From Pseudooceanicola nitratireducens (GTDB taxonomy: Bacteria; Pseudomonadota; Alphaproteobacteria; Rhodobacterales; Rhodobacteraceae): a stretch of DNA of 64,000 bases. The notes beneath the pieces were generated by a model. That model saw only the letters and a program-made list of their open reading frames with translations. It was not told where the DNA came from and did not search any database. Position 1 is the stretch's first letter. Every line of letters begins with the position of its first letter. Below are positions 25,468-56,042 of the stretch, in pieces. The stretch covers positions 132,355 through 196,354 of the forward strand of contig NZ_FNZG01000002.1 in the NCBI RefSeq assembly GCF_900109195.1, in the 5' to 3' direction. Both the position numbers and the translations under genes were made by a program.

Positions 25468-25959
25468 ATGGCCGAGGCTGATACCGGCGCCGCACCGCAG
25501 GCACCGCAGATCAAGATGAATGTCCTGTCGCAATACATTCGCGACATGTCCTTTGAAAACATCCTGGCGCAGAAACCCGCGTCGGGTCAGGTGCAGCCGG
25601 ACGTGAAGGTCCAGGTCGCGCTGGACGTAAAGAAGCGTGAAGCCGATCACCAGTTCGAAGTGGTGATGAAGCTGACGGTGAAATCCGTCGCTCAGGGCAC
25701 CGAAGACGCGCTGTTCCTGCTGGAAGTCGAATATGCCGGCCTGTTCCACATCGAAGGCGTGCCGGAAGACCAGATGCACCCCTTCCTGCTGATCGAATGC
25801 CCGCGCATGCTGTTCCCCTTCGTGCGCCGCATCGTGTCGGATGTGACCCGCGACGGTGGCTTCCCGCCGCTGAACCTGGAAAACATCGACTTCGTGAACC
25901 TGTACCGCACGGAACTGCAGCGTCGCGCCGCAGCCCAGCAGCCGGTCGGCACGGCCTAA
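25468..25959 (+). CDS. secB: Protein-export chaperone SecB
   Basis: Tetrameric cytoplasmic chaperone that holds presecretory proteins unfolded and hands them to SecA. The 163-residue product has an Ala/Pro-rich start (MAEADTGAAPQAPQIKMNVL), YIRDMSFENI, the substrate-binding beta sheet (VALDVKKREADHQFEVVMKL), HPFLLIECPRMLFPFVRRIV and the SecA-binding region DGGFPPLNLENIDFVNLY. GGGAGA lies before the ATG at 25468. Its end faces the dnaQ stop across a 47-base gap. Confidence 0.97.
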   Translation: MAEADTGAAPQAPQIKMNVLSQYIRDMSFENILAQKPASGQVQPDVKVQVALDVKKREADHQFEVVMKLTVKSVAQGTEDALFLLEVEYAGLFHIEGVPEDQMHPFLLIECPRMLFPFVRRIVSDVTRDGGFPPLNLENIDFVNLYRTELQRRAAAQQPVGTA

Positions 25960-28127: not shown

Positions 28128-28720
28128 GTGGTGATCATCCCACGGTCGTTCAGGAAGGTCAGAAGGGGCAGAAGCGGCAGCCCCAGGATCGAGAAATAGT
28201 CGCCGTCGATGCGCGCGAACAGGCGGCTGCCCTCGGCCTCGACCTGGTAACCGCCGACGCAGTATTTCACCGCGTCCCAATTCCGCGACAGGTAGTCGTC
28301 GATATAGGCGTCGGACAGCACGCGCATGGTCAGTCGCGCCTCGCCTATGAACCGCCAGATCGGCCGGGCCTCGTGAAAGATCACGGCGGCGGAATAGAGG
28401 CGATGCGTCTGACCCGACAGACGGCGCAGCTGATCGCCGGCCTCTTCGATGCTGGCGGCTTTGGACAGAAGCGCGCGGTCCAGCTCCAGCACCTGGTCGC
28501 AGCCCAGCACGAAATCCTCGGGGTTTTTCACGGCAATCCGCTGCGCCTTGGCCTCGGCCAGGGCGTCAGAGATATCGCGCGGGCGGGTGCCCTCGGCCAG
28601 AAGCGAGGCCTTGATCATCTCTTCATCGACGGGCGCGGTCTGGACCCGAAAGGGCACCTGCGCGCGGGTCAGAAGCTCGGCCCGAATGGAGGAACCAGAA
28701 GCAAGGATGAGCTGGGACAT
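28124..28720 (-). CDS. maf: Maf family nucleoside triphosphate pyrophosphatase
   Basis: House-cleaning pyrophosphatase acting on dTTP/UTP or modified pyrimidine nucleotides. The 198-residue protein begins [17 protein letters not shown], with the family ASGS-xxR motif, then [13 protein letters not shown], the catalytic [10 protein letters not shown] and the [17 protein letters not shown] segment (the E-x-x-G region). First gene of maf-aroE-coaE-dnaQ. A perfect DnaA box overlaps its start codon, so its promoter lies inside the putative replication origin. Confidence 0.94.
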
Positions 28721-28728
28721 GTGGATAA
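28720..28728 (-). promoter_or_regulatory. Perfect DnaA box
   Basis: TTATCCACA on the reverse strand, overlapping the first base of the maf ATG. DnaA bound here could also repress maf. Confidence 0.75.
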
Positions 28729-28742
28729 GATCCGGGAAAACG

Positions 28743-28757
28743 TTAGGGATTTGTTAA
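28743..28757 (+). promoter_or_regulatory. CtrA-like site
   Basis: TTAG, seven bases, TTAA: one mismatch from the TTAA-N7-TTAA consensus of the alphaproteobacterial cell-cycle regulator CtrA. It lies 15 bases from the perfect DnaA box. Confidence 0.45.
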
Positions 28758-29051
28758 GGGTGGTTTCTGAAGAATTAACACCCCGGAGGCAAGACGTGGG
28801 AAACCATCCCCGTTCTCCCATCCGATGCACCCATCTGTCCCTGTGTTGGCAAGGGTAACTTGAACCCCGTGGATGGATCGCTTGGCCCAAGTTTTGCCCC
28901 AAAGTTGATCCCAGTTTTCCCAAAAGCGCCGTAAAGTCGCAAGCAATTGTGAAATATAGGAAAATCACCGTCATCGCACGGGCAAGGGGATTTCGTACAC
29001 ACAGTTTCCCACAGGATGTGGCGAAATGTGGGCAGCTTTGTGGCAAGTCAG

Positions 29052-29060
29052 TAATCCACA
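29052..29060 (+). promoter_or_regulatory. DnaA box with one mismatch
   Basis: TAATCCACA differs from TTATCCACA at one position and lies 18 bases before the AT-rich tract. Confidence 0.55.
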
Positions 29061-29077
29061 GAAAGTCGCGCCCCTAC

Positions 29078-29117
29078 TAATATCATCAATCTTTTTCTTT
29101 TATATTTTTAAGAATAA
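29078..29117. other. AT-rich candidate DNA unwinding element
   Basis: Forty bases with only five G/C, in a genome of roughly 65 percent GC. It is the most AT-rich tract I saw in the window and lies directly beside the DnaA-box cluster. It also overlaps the hemJ promoter region, which could account for part of its AT-richness. Confidence 0.6.
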
Positions 29118-29126
29118 GGAAGACGG

Positions 29127-29573
29127 ATGACCGACCTTCTCGCGACCCTCTATCCGTGGACCCTGTCCCTGCACATCATGTCCGTGATTGCCTGGATGGC
29201 GGGTATCTTCTATCTGCCCAGGCTCTTCGTGCATCACGTGGAACAGGCCGACAACGCGCAGACCGATGAATTGTTCCAGATGATGGAGCGAAAGCTTCTG
29301 AAGCTGATCATGAACCCTGCCAGCATCGCCACCTGGATCTTTGGCCTGATGCTGGTCTTTACGCCGGGGATCGTCGACTGGGGCATGGTCTGGCCCTGGA
29401 CCAAGGCGGCGGGCGTTATCACCATGACCTGGTTCCATCATTGGCTTGGGAAACGGCGCAAGGACCTTGCCGCCGGGACCAATAGGGTGACCGGACGCCA
29501 GTACCGGATGATGAACGAATTACCGACGCTTCTGATGATCCTCATCGTGCTCTCGGTGGTGGTGAAGTTCTGA
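29127..29573 (+). CDS. hemJ: Protoporphyrinogen IX oxidase HemJ
   Basis: Oxidises protoporphyrinogen IX to protoporphyrin IX in heme and bacteriochlorophyll synthesis; inner-membrane protein of the UPF0093 family. The 148-residue product has four hydrophobic segments, the conserved H16 and W[10 protein letters not shown] pattern ([26 protein letters not shown]), and the conserved [15 protein letters not shown] near the C-terminus. AAGGAAG lies before the ATG. hemH (far right) and hemW (36.8 kb) are also in this window. The upstream region is the putative origin. Confidence 0.93.
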
Positions 29574-32278: not shown

Positions 32279-32294
32279 TGTTTCACGTGAAACA
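32279..32294. promoter_or_regulatory. parS: parS centromere site 1 (perfect), at the mnmG start
   Basis: TGTTTCACGTGAAACA matches the canonical 16-base ParB-binding palindrome at every position. It lies between mnmE and mnmG and contains the GTG used to start mnmG. parA and parB are 2.5 kb downstream. Confidence 0.97.
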
Positions 32295-34154: not shown

Positions 34155-34754
34155 ATGCTGGACAATGTTTCACGTGAAACACTCGATAAGCTCGAGCATT
34201 ACGCAGATCTCTTGGCCAAGTGGAATCCACGCATCAATATCGTGGCAAAGTCCACGATAGGGGAGGCCTGGACGCGGCACATTGTCGATAGCGCGCAGGT
34301 TTTTGCGGCCTCCGACAAACAGGACGGGCAGTGGCTGGACATGGGCAGCGGCGGGGGATTCCCTGGGCTGGTCTGCGCCATCATCGCGGCAGAGAAGTCA
34401 CCGGACCTGAAGTTCACCCTGGTGGATTCCGATCAACGAAAATGCGCCTTTCTGCGCAATGTCGCGCGCGAGACCGGGACGCAGGTCACCGTGATTGCGA
34501 AACGTTTGGAACAGATTGACCCGGTCAACGCGGATGTCATATCGGCCCGCGCCCTGGCCAGTTTGTCTGATCTGCTGCCTTTTGCAAAACGGCACGGAAA
34601 TCAGGCAGCGACGGTGCTTTTTCAAAAGGGCCGTAACTGGCAGGCCGAAGTCGCAGAAGCCAGCCGGGATTGGCGCTTCCAACACGAAGTTCTGCCCAGT
34701 ACAACTGATCCCGAGGCAGTGATCCTGAGAATCAAGGAACTTGAGCATGTCTGA
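34155..34754 (+). CDS. rsmG: 16S rRNA m7G527 methyltransferase RsmG (GidB)
   Basis: Methylates G527 of 16S rRNA with SAM; loss confers low-level streptomycin resistance in many bacteria. The 199-residue protein starts MLDNVSRETLDKLEHYADLL, where NVSRET is encoded by the second parS site. The SAM pocket is WLDMGSGGGFPGLVCAI; ISARALASLSDLL follows. A GTG at 34149, overlapping the mnmG stop, is an alternative start. Its last codons overlap parA. Confidence 0.95.
   Translation: MLDNVSRETLDKLEHYADLLAKWNPRINIVAKSTIGEAWTRHIVDSAQVFAASDKQDGQWLDMGSGGGFPGLVCAIIAAEKSPDLKFTLVDSDQRKCAFLRNVARETGTQVTVIAKRLEQIDPVNADVISARALASLSDLLPFAKRHGNQAATVLFQKGRNWQAEVAEASRDWRFQHEVLPSTTDPEAVILRIKELEHV
34166..34181. promoter_or_regulatory. 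parS: parS centromere site 2 (perfect), inside rsmG
   Basis: A second perfect TGTTTCACGTGAAACA, 1887 bases from the first and within codons 4-9 of rsmG. It lies 581 bases from the parA start. Confidence 0.97.
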
Positions 34755-35556
34755 TATTCTGAACATGGGCGGACCGAAAATCGTGGCGATTGCCAACCAG
34801 AAGGGCGGGGTGGGCAAGACGACGACGACGATCAACCTTGCTGCGGCGCTGGCGGAATTCGGGAACAACGTGCTGATCATCGATCTGGATCCGCAGGGCA
34901 ACGCCTCGACCGGGTTGGGGATCGAAACCGAAGCGCGCGAAAACACGACTTACGAGCTGATCCTGGATGACGCGGCGCTGGAAGATGTGATCCTTGCCAC
35001 CGACGTGAAGGGGCTGAGCATCGTTCCGTCGACGGTCGATCTGTCCTCGGCCGATATTGAATTGATCGCGAACGAAAAACGCAGCTTCCTTTTGCACGAC
35101 GCGCTGCGGCAGCCGGCGATGGAAAAATATGGTTTCGACTATATCCTGATCGACTGCCCGCCGTCGTTGAACCTGCTGACGGTCAACGCGATGGTCGCGG
35201 CGCATTCAGTCCTCGTCCCACTGCAAAGCGAATTCTTTGCGCTGGAAGGTCTGTCGCAATTGATGCTGACGATCCGAGACGTGCGCCAATCCGCGAACCC
35301 GAACCTGCGAATGGAGGGTGTCGTTCTGACGATGTACGACATGCGCAACAACCTGTCGCAACAGGTCGAACAGGATGCGCGGGATAACCTTGGCGATATC
35401 GTCTATCAGACCCGAATCCCGCGAAATGTGCGTGTCAGCGAAGCGCCGTCCTATGCGATGCCCGTGCTGGAATTCGACACGACATCGAAAGGGGCCCAGG
35501 CCTACCGGGCCCTGGCGCAAGAGTTTCTGGCAAAGAACGAACCGGCCGAAGCTTGA
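34747..35556 (+). CDS. parA: Chromosome partitioning ATPase ParA
   Basis: Walker-type ATPase that moves ParB-bound origins to the cell pole. The 269-residue protein has the deviant Walker A KGGVGKTT (19-26) with its signature lysine, IIDLDPQGNASTGLG, the switch region LIDCPPSLNLLTVNAM and VLTMYDMRNNLSQQVEQDAR. The ATG at 34747 is preceded by AAGGA inside rsmG and overlaps rsmG by 8 bases. parB follows after 11 bases. Confidence 0.97.
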   Translation: MSDILNMGGPKIVAIANQKGGVGKTTTTINLAAALAEFGNNVLIIDLDPQGNASTGLGIETEARENTTYELILDDAALEDVILATDVKGLSIVPSTVDLSSADIELIANEKRSFLLHDALRQPAMEKYGFDYILIDCPPSLNLLTVNAMVAAHSVLVPLQSEFFALEGLSQLMLTIRDVRQSANPNLRMEGVVLTMYDMRNNLSQQVEQDARDNLGDIVYQTRIPRNVRVSEAPSYAMPVLEFDTTSKGAQAYRALAQEFLAKNEPAEA

Positions 35557-35567
35557 GGAGAATGAGC

Positions 35568-36461
35568 ATGAGCAAGAATCAAAGAAACCGCGGCCTCGGG
35601 CGTGGGCTGTCGGCCTTGATGGCGGATGTGAACGCGGATCAACCGTCGGTGGCGGCCGAGGCTCCGGCTGGGCCGCGCCGTCCGGACCTGCTTGTTCCGG
35701 TTGAAAAGGTTGTTCCGAACCCGGACCAGCCGCGCCGCACTTTTACCCAGGCTCAACTTGATGAACTCGCTGCTTCGATCAAGGAGAAGGGGATCATCCA
35801 GCCCCTGATCGTGCGCGAACGGGGTGAGACATATGAAATCGTTGCCGGTGAACGTCGCTGGCGTGCTGCGCAGATTGCCAAGTTGCACGAAATTCCGGTG
35901 TTGCTCCGCGACTACGACGACACCGAAGTGCTGGAAGTCGCGATCATCGAAAACATCCAGCGGGCGGATCTGAACCCGGTGGAGGAAGCCGCCGGCTACC
36001 GTCAGCTGATGGACCGCTTTGGCCACACACAGGAAAAACTGGCCGAGGCGCTTGGGAAAAGCCGCAGCTACATTGCCAACCTGCTGCGCCTGCTGAACCT
36101 TCCTACGGATGTGCAGGATCTGCTGAAGGATGGGAAACTGTCCGCCGGGCATGCACGGGCATTGATTACTGCTGACAATCCCTCAGTCCTGGCGGCCCAG
36201 GTGATCGCGGGCGGGCTGTCGGTTCGGGAAACCGAAAAGCTGGCCAACCAGGAAAAACCAGAGCCGAAGAAGGCGAAAACCACTGCCGCGCCCGAGAAGG
36301 ACGCAGACACCCGTGCGCTGGAAGGGGACCTGTCCGCGGCGCTTGGCATGAACGTGACGATCAACCACCCGGCCAGTGGCGATGGCGGCACGATCAGCAT
36401 CCGCTACAAGGATTTGGATCAGCTGGACGAATTGTGCCGGATCCTCAGCGCGGCCCGTTAG
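35568..36461 (+). CDS. parB: Chromosome partitioning protein ParB
   Basis: CTP-dependent DNA clamp that loads at parS and spreads. The 297-residue product has the ParA-stimulating N-terminus (RNRGLGRGLSALMADV), VVPNPDQPRR (51-57), the CTPase motif GERRWRAA (94-101), ENIQRADLNPVEEAAGYRQL, a helix-turn-helix (TQEKLAEALGKSRSYIANLL), and a C-terminal dimer domain. GAGGAG lies seven bases before the ATG at 35568. Its 3' end overlaps the convergent DUF454 gene by 17 bases. Confidence 0.97.
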   Translation: MSKNQRNRGLGRGLSALMADVNADQPSVAAEAPAGPRRPDLLVPVEKVVPNPDQPRRTFTQAQLDELAASIKEKGIIQPLIVRERGETYEIVAGERRWRAAQIAKLHEIPVLLRDYDDTEVLEVAIIENIQRADLNPVEEAAGYRQLMDRFGHTQEKLAEALGKSRSYIANLLRLLNLPTDVQDLLKDGKLSAGHARALITADNPSVLAAQVIAGGLSVRETEKLANQEKPEPKKAKTTAAPEKDADTRALEGDLSAALGMNVTINHPASGDGGTISIRYKDLDQLDELCRILSAAR

Positions 36462-43908: not shown

Positions 43909-46170
43909 ATGTCCAAGTCGAAATCCCGGATCACGCCTGAAGACGCGCTGGCGTTCCACCTGGAACCCGCCCCCGGCAAATGGGAGGTCTCGGCCACGGT
44001 CCCGATGACGACACAGCGCGATCTGTCGCTGGCCTATTCGCCGGGCGTTGCTGTTCCATGTGAAGCAATCCACGCCAACCCGGAAACCGCCTATGATTAC
44101 ACCAACAAGGGCAACCTTGTGGCCGTGATTTCCAACGGGACGGCGGTTCTTGGGCTGGGCAACCTTGGCGCGCTGGCCTCGAAACCGGTGATGGAGGGCA
44201 AGTCGGTCCTGTTCAAACGCTTTGCGGACGTGAACTCGATCGACCTTGAGCTGGACACCGAGGACACCGAAGCCTTCATCAACGCGGTCAAGCTGATGGG
44301 CCCGTCCTTTGGCGGCATCAACCTGGAAGACATCAAGGCGCCCGAGTGTTTCATCATCGAACAGCGCCTGAAGGAAGAAATGGACATCCCCGTCTTCCAC
44401 GACGACCAGCACGGCACCGCCGTGATCTGCGCCGCCGGTCTGCTGAACGCGCTGAAGATTTCCGGCAAGAAGATCGAGGACTGCAAGATCGTGCTGAATG
44501 GCGCGGGTGCGGCTGGGATCGCCTGCATCGAACTTCTCAAACGCATGGGCGCGCGGCACGAGAACTGCATCGTCTGCGACACCAAGGGCGTGATCTACCA
44601 GGGCCGTACCGACGGCATGAACCAGTGGAAATCGGCCCATGCCATCACCACGGACCTGCGCACGCTGGAAGAGGCGATGGAGGGCGCGGACGTCTTCCTG
44701 GGTGTCTCGGTCAAGGGCGCGGTGACGCGGGATATGGTCGCCAGCATGGCCAAGGATCCGGTGATCTTCGCCATGGCGAACCCCGATCCCGAAATCACCC
44801 CCGAAGAAGCCCACGAGGTACGCGAAGACGCCATCGTTGCCACGGGCCGGTCGGATTATCCGAACCAGGTGAACAACGTCCTTGGTTTCCCCTATCTCTT
44901 CCGTGGCGCACTGGACATCCACGCCCGCGCCATCAACGACGAAATGAAGATCGCCTGCGCCGAGGCCCTGGCCGAACTGGCGCGCGAAGATGTTCCGGAC
45001 GAGGTCGCGATGGCCTATGGCAAGGCGCTGACCTTCGGGCGGGATTACATCATCCCGACGCCCTTCGATCCGCGCCTGATCTACCGCGTGCCGCCCGCCG
45101 TGGCGCGGGCCGGCATGGACACCGGGGCCGCGCGGCGCCCGATCGTCGACATGGACGCCTATGAGCTGAGCCTGAAGTCCCGCATGGATCCGACGGCGAA
45201 CATCCTGCGGTCGATCAACACGCGGGCGCGGAATGCGCAGGCCCGCATGATCTTTGCCGAAGGCGATGACCCCCGCGTGCTGCGCGCGGCCGTCATGTAC
45301 CAACGCAACGGCCTGGGTGAGGCCCTGGTTGTCGGACGCGAAGCGGATGTGAAGAAAAAGCTCGAGGCCGCCGGTCTCGGCGACGCGGTGGGCGAATTGA
45401 AGGTCGTCAACGCCGCCAACACCGAGCACCTGGATGAATACAAGGCCTTCCTGTACAACCGGTTGCAGCGCAAGGGCATGGATCAGCACGACATTCACCG
45501 TCTTGCGGCTCGGGATCGTCACGTCTTTAGCGCGCTTATGCTGGCCCATGGGCATGGCGATGCGCTGATCACCGGGGCGACGCGGAAATCGGCGCATGTG
45601 CTGGAACTGATCAACCACGTCTTCGACGCCGATGCGGCGCATGGGGCGGCCGGTGTCACGGCGCTGATCCACAAGGGGCGGATCATCCTGGTTTCGGATA
45701 CGCTGGTGCACGAATGGCCGGACGAGGAAGACCTGGCCAATATCGCCGAACGCTGTGCCGAGGTCGCCCGCGACCTGGGTCTGGAGCCACGCGTGGCCTT
45801 TGTCAGCTTCTCGACCTTCGGCTATCCGGTCTCGGAACGGGCCGAGAAGATGCACGTGGCGCCCAAGGTTCTGGCGCAGCGCGGTGTGGATTTCGAATTC
45901 GACGGGGAAATGACCGTGGACGTGGCGCTGAACGCCCGTGCGCGCGAAAATTATCCCTTCGCCAAGCTGACCGACAACGCCAATATCCTGGTGGTTCCGG
46001 CCCGCCATTCGGCCAGCATCAGCGTCAAGATGATGCAGGAACTGGCCGGGGCCACGGTGATCGGGCCGATCCTGTCGGGCGTCGACAAGCCGATCCAGAT
46101 CTGTTCGACCGGCTCGACCGTGAACGACATCCTCAACATGGCGCTTCTGGCGGCCAGCAAGGTCAGCTGA
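43909..46170 (+). CDS. maeB: NADP-dependent malic enzyme with C-terminal phosphotransacetylase-like domain
   Basis: Oxidative decarboxylation of malate to pyruvate, supplying NADPH and pyruvate. The 753-residue protein joins a malic-enzyme domain (about 1-430; SLAYSPGVAVPCEAI, YDYTNKGNLVAVISNGTAVL, FHDDQHGTAVICAAGLLNAL and the cofactor motif LNGAGAAGIACIELL) to a phosphate-acetyltransferase-like domain (about 435-753; FAEGDDPRVLRAAV and ITGATRKSAHVLELI) thought to be regulatory, as in rhizobial TME/DME. GAGGAG lies upstream, just after a CATTGGG/CCCAATG repeat (43869-43895). Its stop overlaps the next start (TGATG). Confidence 0.97.
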   Translation: MSKSKSRITPEDALAFHLEPAPGKWEVSATVPMTTQRDLSLAYSPGVAVPCEAIHANPETAYDYTNKGNLVAVISNGTAVLGLGNLGALASKPVMEGKSVLFKRFADVNSIDLELDTEDTEAFINAVKLMGPSFGGINLEDIKAPECFIIEQRLKEEMDIPVFHDDQHGTAVICAAGLLNALKISGKKIEDCKIVLNGAGAAGIACIELLKRMGARHENCIVCDTKGVIYQGRTDGMNQWKSAHAITTDLRTLEEAMEGADVFLGVSVKGAVTRDMVASMAKDPVIFAMANPDPEITPEEAHEVREDAIVATGRSDYPNQVNNVLGFPYLFRGALDIHARAINDEMKIACAEALAELAREDVPDEVAMAYGKALTFGRDYIIPTPFDPRLIYRVPPAVARAGMDTGAARRPIVDMDAYELSLKSRMDPTANILRSINTRARNAQARMIFAEGDDPRVLRAAVMYQRNGLGEALVVGREADVKKKLEAAGLGDAVGELKVVNAANTEHLDEYKAFLYNRLQRKGMDQHDIHRLAARDRHVFSALMLAHGHGDALITGATRKSAHVLELINHVFDADAAHGAAGVTALIHKGRIILVSDTLVHEWPDEEDLANIAERCAEVARDLGLEPRVAFVSFSTFGYPVSERAEKMHVAPKVLAQRGVDFEFDGEMTVDVALNARARENYPFAKLTDNANILVVPARHSASISVKMMQELAGATVIGPILSGVDKPIQICSTGSTVNDILNMALLAASKVS

Positions 46171-55052: not shown

Positions 55053-56042
55053 ATGATCGGATCGAAACTGGCCTGGGACGACACCGTCCTGCCCTTTCAG
55101 CTTGATGCTTCTGACGTGCGCGGCCGCGTGGCGCGGCTGGACGGCGTGCTTGGCGGCATCCTCAAGCAACATGACTACCCCCCGCAGGTCGAGGCGCTGG
55201 TCGCCGAGATGGCCCTGCTGACCGCGCTGATCGGCCAGACGATCAAGCTGCGCTGGAAACTGTCGCTTCAGGTGCAGTCCAAGGGCGCGGTGCGCATGAT
55301 CGCCACCGATTACTACGGCCCCGAGAAAGAGGGCGACCCGGCCCGCATCCGGGCCTATGCCAGCTTTGACCGTGACCGGCTGACCGACAGCGCACCCTTT
55401 GACCAGATCGGCGAAGGCTATTTCGCGATCCTGATCGACCAGGGCAAGGGTATGCAGCCCTACCAGGGGATCACCCCGCTGGCCGGTGGATCGCTGCGCG
55501 CCTGCGCCGAGGCCTACTTTGCCCAGTCCGAACAGCTTCCGACCCGGTTTTCGCTGTCCTTCGGCAAGTCGACGGAAGCGGGCGGTGTCGAACACTGGCG
55601 CGCCGGCGGCGTGATGATCCAGGTGATGCCCGAGGCCGGCGAACATGTCGCCGGTGAGGGCGGCACGGGCGAAGGCGGTCTTCTTGTGGCCTCGGACCTG
55701 GTTGAAGGCGACCGGGAAGAGGATTGGAACCGCGTGAACTTCCACCTTGATACGGTCGACGATCTAGAGCTGATCGGCCCAAGCGTCGCGCCGACCGATC
55801 TGCTGGTCCGACTGTTTCACGAGGAACAGCCGCGCGTCTTCGGATCCCAGCCGGTGCGCTTTGGCTGCACCTGTTCCGAGGATCGCGTGCGTCAGTCCCT
55901 GTCGATCTATTCCGCCAAGGATATCGAGAAGATGACCACCGACGACGGCCAGGTCACGGCGGATTGCCAGTTCTGCGGCGCGCATTACGTGCTGGATCCG
56001 AAAAGCGTCGGCTTCGAGGCCGGAACATCGGATGAAGGCTGA
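55053..56042 (+). CDS. hslO: Redox-regulated chaperone Hsp33
   Basis: Holdase chaperone activated by oxidative stress through zinc release and disulfide formation. The 329-residue protein has the family N-terminal domain (PFQLDASDVRGRVARLDGVL) and, at the C-terminus, the four zinc Cys as CTC (in FGCTCSEDRVRQ) and CQFC (in ADCQFCGAHYVLD), complete for a redox switch. AGAAGGA lies before the ATG at 55053. A 14-of-16 parS-like palindrome falls in its coding region (55813-55828). The next gene overlaps its end by 11 bases. Confidence 0.96.
   Translation: MIGSKLAWDDTVLPFQLDASDVRGRVARLDGVLGGILKQHDYPPQVEALVAEMALLTALIGQTIKLRWKLSLQVQSKGAVRMIATDYYGPEKEGDPARIRAYASFDRDRLTDSAPFDQIGEGYFAILIDQGKGMQPYQGITPLAGGSLRACAEAYFAQSEQLPTRFSLSFGKSTEAGGVEHWRAGGVMIQVMPEAGEHVAGEGGTGEGGLLVASDLVEGDREEDWNRVNFHLDTVDDLELIGPSVAPTDLLVRLFHEEQPRVFGSQPVRFGCTCSEDRVRQSLSIYSAKDIEKMTTDDGQVTADCQFCGAHYVLDPKSVGFEAGTSDEG

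Follow-up and report, generated by a model that had tools for sequence, protein, structure and literature searches.

The chromosomal origin of Caulobacter crescentus, Cori, belongs to the hemE type, which is also found in Rickettsia. The place and kind of Rhodobacteraceae origins are already known, as they have been predicted near parAB. For 101 Rhodobacteraceae, oriC was predicted from DnaA boxes, GC skew and closeness to parAB/par, according to excerpts of PMC6699656, and oriC1 of Rhodobacter sphaeroides is described in excerpts of PMC6315104. A DnaA-trio system is described for Bacillus subtilis in excerpts of PMC8287927 and PMC10721633. The excerpts of PMC8287927 define the basal unwinding system as a DnaA box, a spacer, the length of which peaks at 10-13 bases, and at least three 3'-NAN-5' triplets; deviant DnaA-trios are suspected there in origins missed by the search. 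According to the excerpts of PMC10721633, DnaA captures two bases of each 3'-GAT-5' trio, the first and the second; the G is contacted by Arg202 and Glu228, and the middle adenine by Asn187. On the top strand, the canonical trio asks for T in the middle.

Here we analyse a 64,000-nucleotide stretch of the Pseudooceanicola nitratireducens genome (the window). Its intergenic segment at 28721-29126, flanked by maf and hemJ, is very probably the chromosomal origin, oriC, as judged from its DNA and gene neighbourhood. What is less expected is that its unwinding repeat and DnaA may follow a reading code other than the textbook one.

The segment resembles Cori, as described in excerpts of PMC1914354, in its DnaA boxes and AT-rich 40-mer. 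In other alphaproteobacterial families, a sequence model of the element finds it ahead of hemE, flanked by maf and hemJ. In contrast to Cori, which was compared by description, the genome's own hemE is remote, maf itself rather than COG1806 borders the gap, and a single CtrA-like site with one mismatch takes the place of five CtrA sites. Like the 101 Rhodobacteraceae origins predicted in the excerpts of PMC6699656, the locus has DnaA boxes, a step in skew and a nearby parAB, and the likeness to R. sphaeroides oriC1 (excerpts of PMC6315104), which was compared by criteria and not by coordinates, lies in DnaA boxes, a skew step and closeness to the par locus. The order of box, 13-base spacer, triplets, three of them NAN, and AT-rich stretch is that of B. 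subtilis, as given in the excerpts of PMC8287927 and PMC10721633. It differs from B. subtilis in that the arrays of relatives are mostly CTA-CAT-CAT-CAT-like, those of other alphaproteobacterial families are in many cases C-phased with a free middle base, and residue 187 of alphaproteobacterial DnaA is Tyr, Phe or His instead of Asn.

Organization of the gap between maf and hemJ

The gap extends over 406 bases from maf, which starts at 28720 on the minus strand, to hemJ, which starts at 29127 on the plus strand, and corresponds to the gene-free segment of about 400 bases reported in the initial annotation. Its G+C content is 0.478, versus 0.635 for the whole window. The 40-base tract with five G/C that had been annotated is real: it is located at 29078-29117, is T-rich on the plus strand, and no other 40-mer within the 64 kb is as low in G/C. 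It is the likely unwinding region. Ten proteins flanking the gap were scanned. Curated cut-offs are passed by AroE, CoaE, DnaQ, Rho, MnmE and MnmG, and a domain model by ParB; Maf, HemJ and ParA give family matches that fall short of the cut-offs. The name of rsmG comes from reading the sequence alone.

The gap contains both the low-GC region and DnaA boxes, although the boxes are few. The perfect box TTATCCACA (28720-28728, minus strand) overlaps the start codon of maf by one base, and its place is conserved in the family alignment. In that alignment it is followed by a second box at 28732-28740, which is degenerate in the window. The weak box TTTCCCACA (29005-29013, plus strand, two mismatches) occupies a box place conserved in the family, and a second weak box, TTCGCCACA (29017-29025, minus strand, two mismatches), was identified in the box scan. 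The conserved box TAATCCACA (29052-29060, plus strand, one mismatch) lies beside the unwinding element, so that the annotated set of one perfect box and several near boxes amounts to one, one and two boxes with zero, one and two mismatches, respectively. This last box is followed on the plus strand by a GC-rich spacer of 13 bases (29061-29073), which separates it from the triplet array CTA CTA ATA T CAT CAA TCT (29074-29092). The array is DnaA-trio-like when read on the complementary strand.

The box count of the window was rejected as proof of an origin, because near boxes in the 64 kb are no more frequent than chance predicts: 12 boxes with at most one mismatch were observed versus 11.6 expected, and four boxes with at most two mismatches in an equal span also occur elsewhere, for example near 25618. 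Sites of the form TTATNCACA number 24 in the 4.06 Mb draft genome, one of them in the gap, versus 31 for the reversed pattern.

The annotated CtrA-like site (TTAG-N7-TTAA, one mismatch, 28743-28757) is the only such site in the window, but its place is not conserved in relatives, as the 79-sequence alignment has no majority sequence there. An IHF-like place with the family consensus TAA-N4-TTGATATTAA lies at 28940-28952 on the minus strand and was named for its likeness to the IHF consensus; in the window it is degenerate, without an exact match. The gap also contains a terminator-like stem with a T tail on the minus strand (28778-28797; one found, 0.5 expected). A scan of 28500-29300 against Rfam at curated cut-offs gave no match.

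The divergent orientation of the flanking genes and the overlap of a DnaA box with the maf start codon could also fit a DnaA-regulated promoter region serving maf and hemJ in place of an origin. A scan of 28600-29200 that covers sigma-70-like promoters only found none, which speaks against this explanation; together with the distribution of the element and the skew described below, it leaves a promoter region highly improbable.

Conservation among relatives

A search with HemJ gave 284 loci, of which the best 80 were taken as named relatives. Among these best 80 of 284, the order maf-gap-hemJ is kept in 78, rho is next after hemJ in 79, and both maf and rho are present in 77; all exceptions fall at contig ends. 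HemJ is 89% identical to that of P. onchidii and DnaA is 93% identical to that of a P. batsensis genome, and the nearest relatives are Pseudooceanicola-like.

Together, 79 gaps, including that of the window, contain 53 perfect DnaA boxes, compared with 0.3 in shuffles. Boxes with at most one mismatch number 240 and occur in 78 of the 79 gaps, compared with 8.5 in shuffles. The alignment of the 79 sequences has several conserved box places and one IHF-like place, and its conserved end consists of TAATCCACA followed by the spacer, CCCTAC, the triplets and the T-rich tract. Exact CtrA sites exceed chance, being present in 15 of the 79 gaps (0.7 in shuffles), as do sites with at most one mismatch, present in 51 (23.7 in shuffles). 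Among 28 loci of other families there is no clear excess, with exact CtrA sites in two (0.2 in shuffles) and sites with at most one mismatch in four (3.9 in shuffles). Exact IHF sites occur in 14 of the 79 gaps (2.1 in shuffles), in none of the 28 other-family loci and not in the window. CtrA and IHF may have roles at the gap.

Distribution of the element and position of hemE

A sequence-only model of the gap end, comprising DnaA box, spacer, triplets and T-rich stretch, was derived from the sequences of 78 relatives, the window being excluded from the training set. In the genome of P. nitratireducens the model has a single match at E up to 10, located at 29048-29115 on the plus strand with an E of 2.7e-11 (scoring covered 150 of the 377 first-look candidates). 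Across the order, 166 of 196 genomes have a match at E 0.001 and 179 at E 0.05, where some of the 13 matches weaker than 0.001 may be due to chance; all 196 genomes are labelled as the same family, and training genomes may be among them. The remaining 17 of the 196 have no match at E 0.05, and about ten order genomes have a second one. All six matches whose neighbours were read, the one in the window included, lie between maf and hemJ-rho.

Across the class, 23 of 115 genomes were matched at E 0.01, two within the family and 21 outside it. Nine of the 21 out-of-family matches share the orientation of hemE and lie upstream of it, at distances of 50 to 260 bases. Beside rho, one match lies between rho and maf and another between rho and dnaQ, and ten of the 21 adjoin none of the tested genes. 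The occurrence of the element before hemE or beside rho in other families indicates that it tracks the origin neighbourhood and not hemJ alone, which would not be expected of a promoter region shared by maf and hemJ.

The gene order around hemE was read in 28 loci of other families, which are best matches rather than a random sample and reach about 1.5 kb beyond the gene. The set was kept whole, although a box-and-triplet end is not clearly recognizable in three loci (L185, L186 and L200), and one locus from the own family (L172) was dropped. hemJ is downstream of hemE on the same strand in 27 of the 28 loci, and maf is upstream on the opposite strand in 12; three loci read maf, about 1.2 kb, hemE, hemJ, rho. 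The hemE of P. nitratireducens is at C18:559854 (C18 being the contig that carries the gap), about 400 kb away, and does not border the proposed origin; the initial annotation had pointed out its absence. The gene order in other families accounts for this: the Rhodobacterales arrangement appears to be the hemE type without hemE, in which the origin abuts hemJ.

Position of parS sites and GC skew

Two perfect parS sites, at 32279-32294 and 34166-34181, are positioned 3.2 kb and 5.0 kb to the right of the gap. They confirm the pair that had been annotated and are the only perfect sites in the genome, which also has a pair with one mismatch at C18:68810 and C18:188167. The plus-strand genes parA (34741-35556, below curated cut-offs) and parB (35553-36461, passing its domain model) follow. 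All five relatives inspected likewise have exactly two perfect parS sites in their genomes, both beside the homologous locus. The window has further parS-like sequences at 29230-29245 (three mismatches), 44052-44067 (three) and 55813-55828 (two), the first of which falls within hemJ and is separated from the proposed origin by about 100 bases.

The genome is a draft of 32 contigs, and its skew was sampled on contig C18 only. The mean skew is 0.007 to the left of the gap (six samples over the 160 kb from the contig start to the gap) versus 0.042 to the right (16 samples). The step at the gap is significant (Mann-Whitney p 0.0012), although the skew on the left is about zero and not negative. 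In one relative, GAI101, the skew reverses its sign from the sample at 2.60 Mb to that at 2.70 Mb, within 40 kb of the homologous gap near 2.66 Mb. In a second relative, CP023454.1, the gap lies at about 50 kb; the old sign persists in the sample at 60-80 kb and has given way to the new one at 200 kb, so that the change is offset by up to 150 kb. In both relatives, a few samples inside the arms carry the wrong sign. The samples from C18:1-50000 (L083, L084) have G+C contents of 0.556 and 0.590, versus 0.627-0.664 in the other samples, and this DNA was perhaps acquired. A skew step at the gap is a further point against a mere promoter region.

The near-zero skew between dnaA and the gap, together with the proximity of dnaA (C18:77427), would also fit a true origin located 84 kb leftward, at dnaA, in which case the gap would be a relic or serve to titrate DnaA. 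However, the only model match is at the gap, with the pair of perfect parS sites close by, and in four relatives the distance between dnaA and the homologous gap varies from 49 to 153 kb, so that dnaA keeps no fixed place beside it. We consider an origin at dnaA extremely improbable. The assignment of oriC to the gap, already made in the initial annotation, is supported by the model trained without the window, the matches across the order, the element before hemE, the parS sites and the skew step.

Triplet repeat and residue 187 of DnaA

The repeat in the window passes the loose rule published in the excerpts of PMC8287927, with the box at 29052-29060, the 13-base spacer and CTA CTA ATA as three NAN triplets. 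At least three NAN triplets within 16 bases of a box were found in 54 of 79 Rhodobacterales gaps (10.6 in shuffles) and in 10 of 28 other-family loci (2.2 in shuffles).

The triplets of the other families were also searched for C-phased runs, which have 3'-G on the strand below. This search fixes C in the first place and bars G, and the informative quantities are the run length relative to shuffles and the middle letters only. In the 28 other-family loci, the longest C-phased run has a mean of 4.46 triplets versus 2.71 in shuffles, and runs with T in the middle have a mean of 2.86 versus 2.43. C-phased runs of at least four triplets occur in 19 of the 28 loci, and their middle letter on the top strand is A in 31, C in 37 and T in 31 per cent. 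Such runs with a box within 25 bases are present in 13 of the 28 other-family loci and 27 of the 79 Rhodobacterales gaps, compared with 0.3 in shuffles of each set. Triplet stretches such as CAACAACAACAAC and CCACCACCACCACC, without lower-strand adenine, are found upstream of hemE (L149:1501-1560, L155:1501-1551 and L178).

CTA-CAT-CAT-CAT, the form common in Rhodobacterales, allows two readings, one C-phased and the other shifted by one base with a middle adenine. Runs with T in the middle were discarded as evidence in Rhodobacterales, as they are confounded by the T-rich tract. The array of the window carries an extra T, and those of its nearest relatives an extra base. Because of the extra T and a longest C-phased run of only three triplets, the window itself is not a good example of a C-phased array.

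DnaA sequences were aligned to the B. subtilis protein in entry 8btg; the position numbers were counted by hand and agree with the residues named in the excerpts of PMC10721633. The dnaA gene of P. nitratireducens (L081:1501-2868, equal to C18:77427-78794, minus strand) encodes Tyr where the B. subtilis protein has Asn187. The alphaproteobacterial sample comprises 66 rows, namely the own sequence, 29 from other families (30 genomes, one of which gave none), 30 of the 80 named relatives and six more, and these sets may overlap. Position 187 is Tyr in 61 of these rows, Phe in three and His in two, and Asn in none of the 66. In 20 rows from other proteobacteria, the best matches among 67 genomes, it is Thr in 17 and Asn, Leu and Ala in one each. 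Tyr, Phe or His is thus present in 66 of 66 alphaproteobacterial versus 0 of 20 other proteobacterial rows, and an aromatic residue at 187 marks the alphaproteobacterial rows in this sample of aligned sequences. The prevalence of Thr in the non-alphaproteobacterial rows shows that other proteobacteria do not generally carry Asn either. Glu228 is kept in all 60 alphaproteobacterial rows checked, and position 202 is Lys. Lys202 was dropped as a mark of the class, as it is also present in 19 of the 20 non-alphaproteobacterial rows.

Discussion

The mechanism proposed for the window is modelled throughout on the excerpts of PMC8287927 and PMC10721633. DnaA would load on boxes across the gap, and a DnaA filament starting from the box at 29052-29060 would extend over the GC-rich spacer onto the triplets from 29074. 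The filament would capture the lower strand and open the T-rich stretch to about 29117 for helicase loading. ParB bound to the parS sites at 32279 and 34166 could then help to move the new origins apart.

The residue at position 187 may be linked to the free middle base of the triplets. We tentatively suggest that alphaproteobacteria might use a re-coded DnaA-trio, in which the first base (3'-G) is read and the middle base is free because an aromatic DnaA residue replaces Asn187, so that the origin code and the initiator would have changed together across the class. We regard this as a real possibility, but not as the probable outcome. Our searches, which covered open-licence PMC papers only, gave no report of a deviant alphaproteobacterial trio or of the aromatic residue.

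The assignment of oriC to the segment between maf and hemJ would locate the origin of a Rhodobacterales bacterium known from a draft genome and account for the absence of its textbook neighbour, hemE. The joint deviation of the triplets and of DnaA residue 187 gives a way to test directly the deviant DnaA-trios suspected in the excerpts of PMC8287927.
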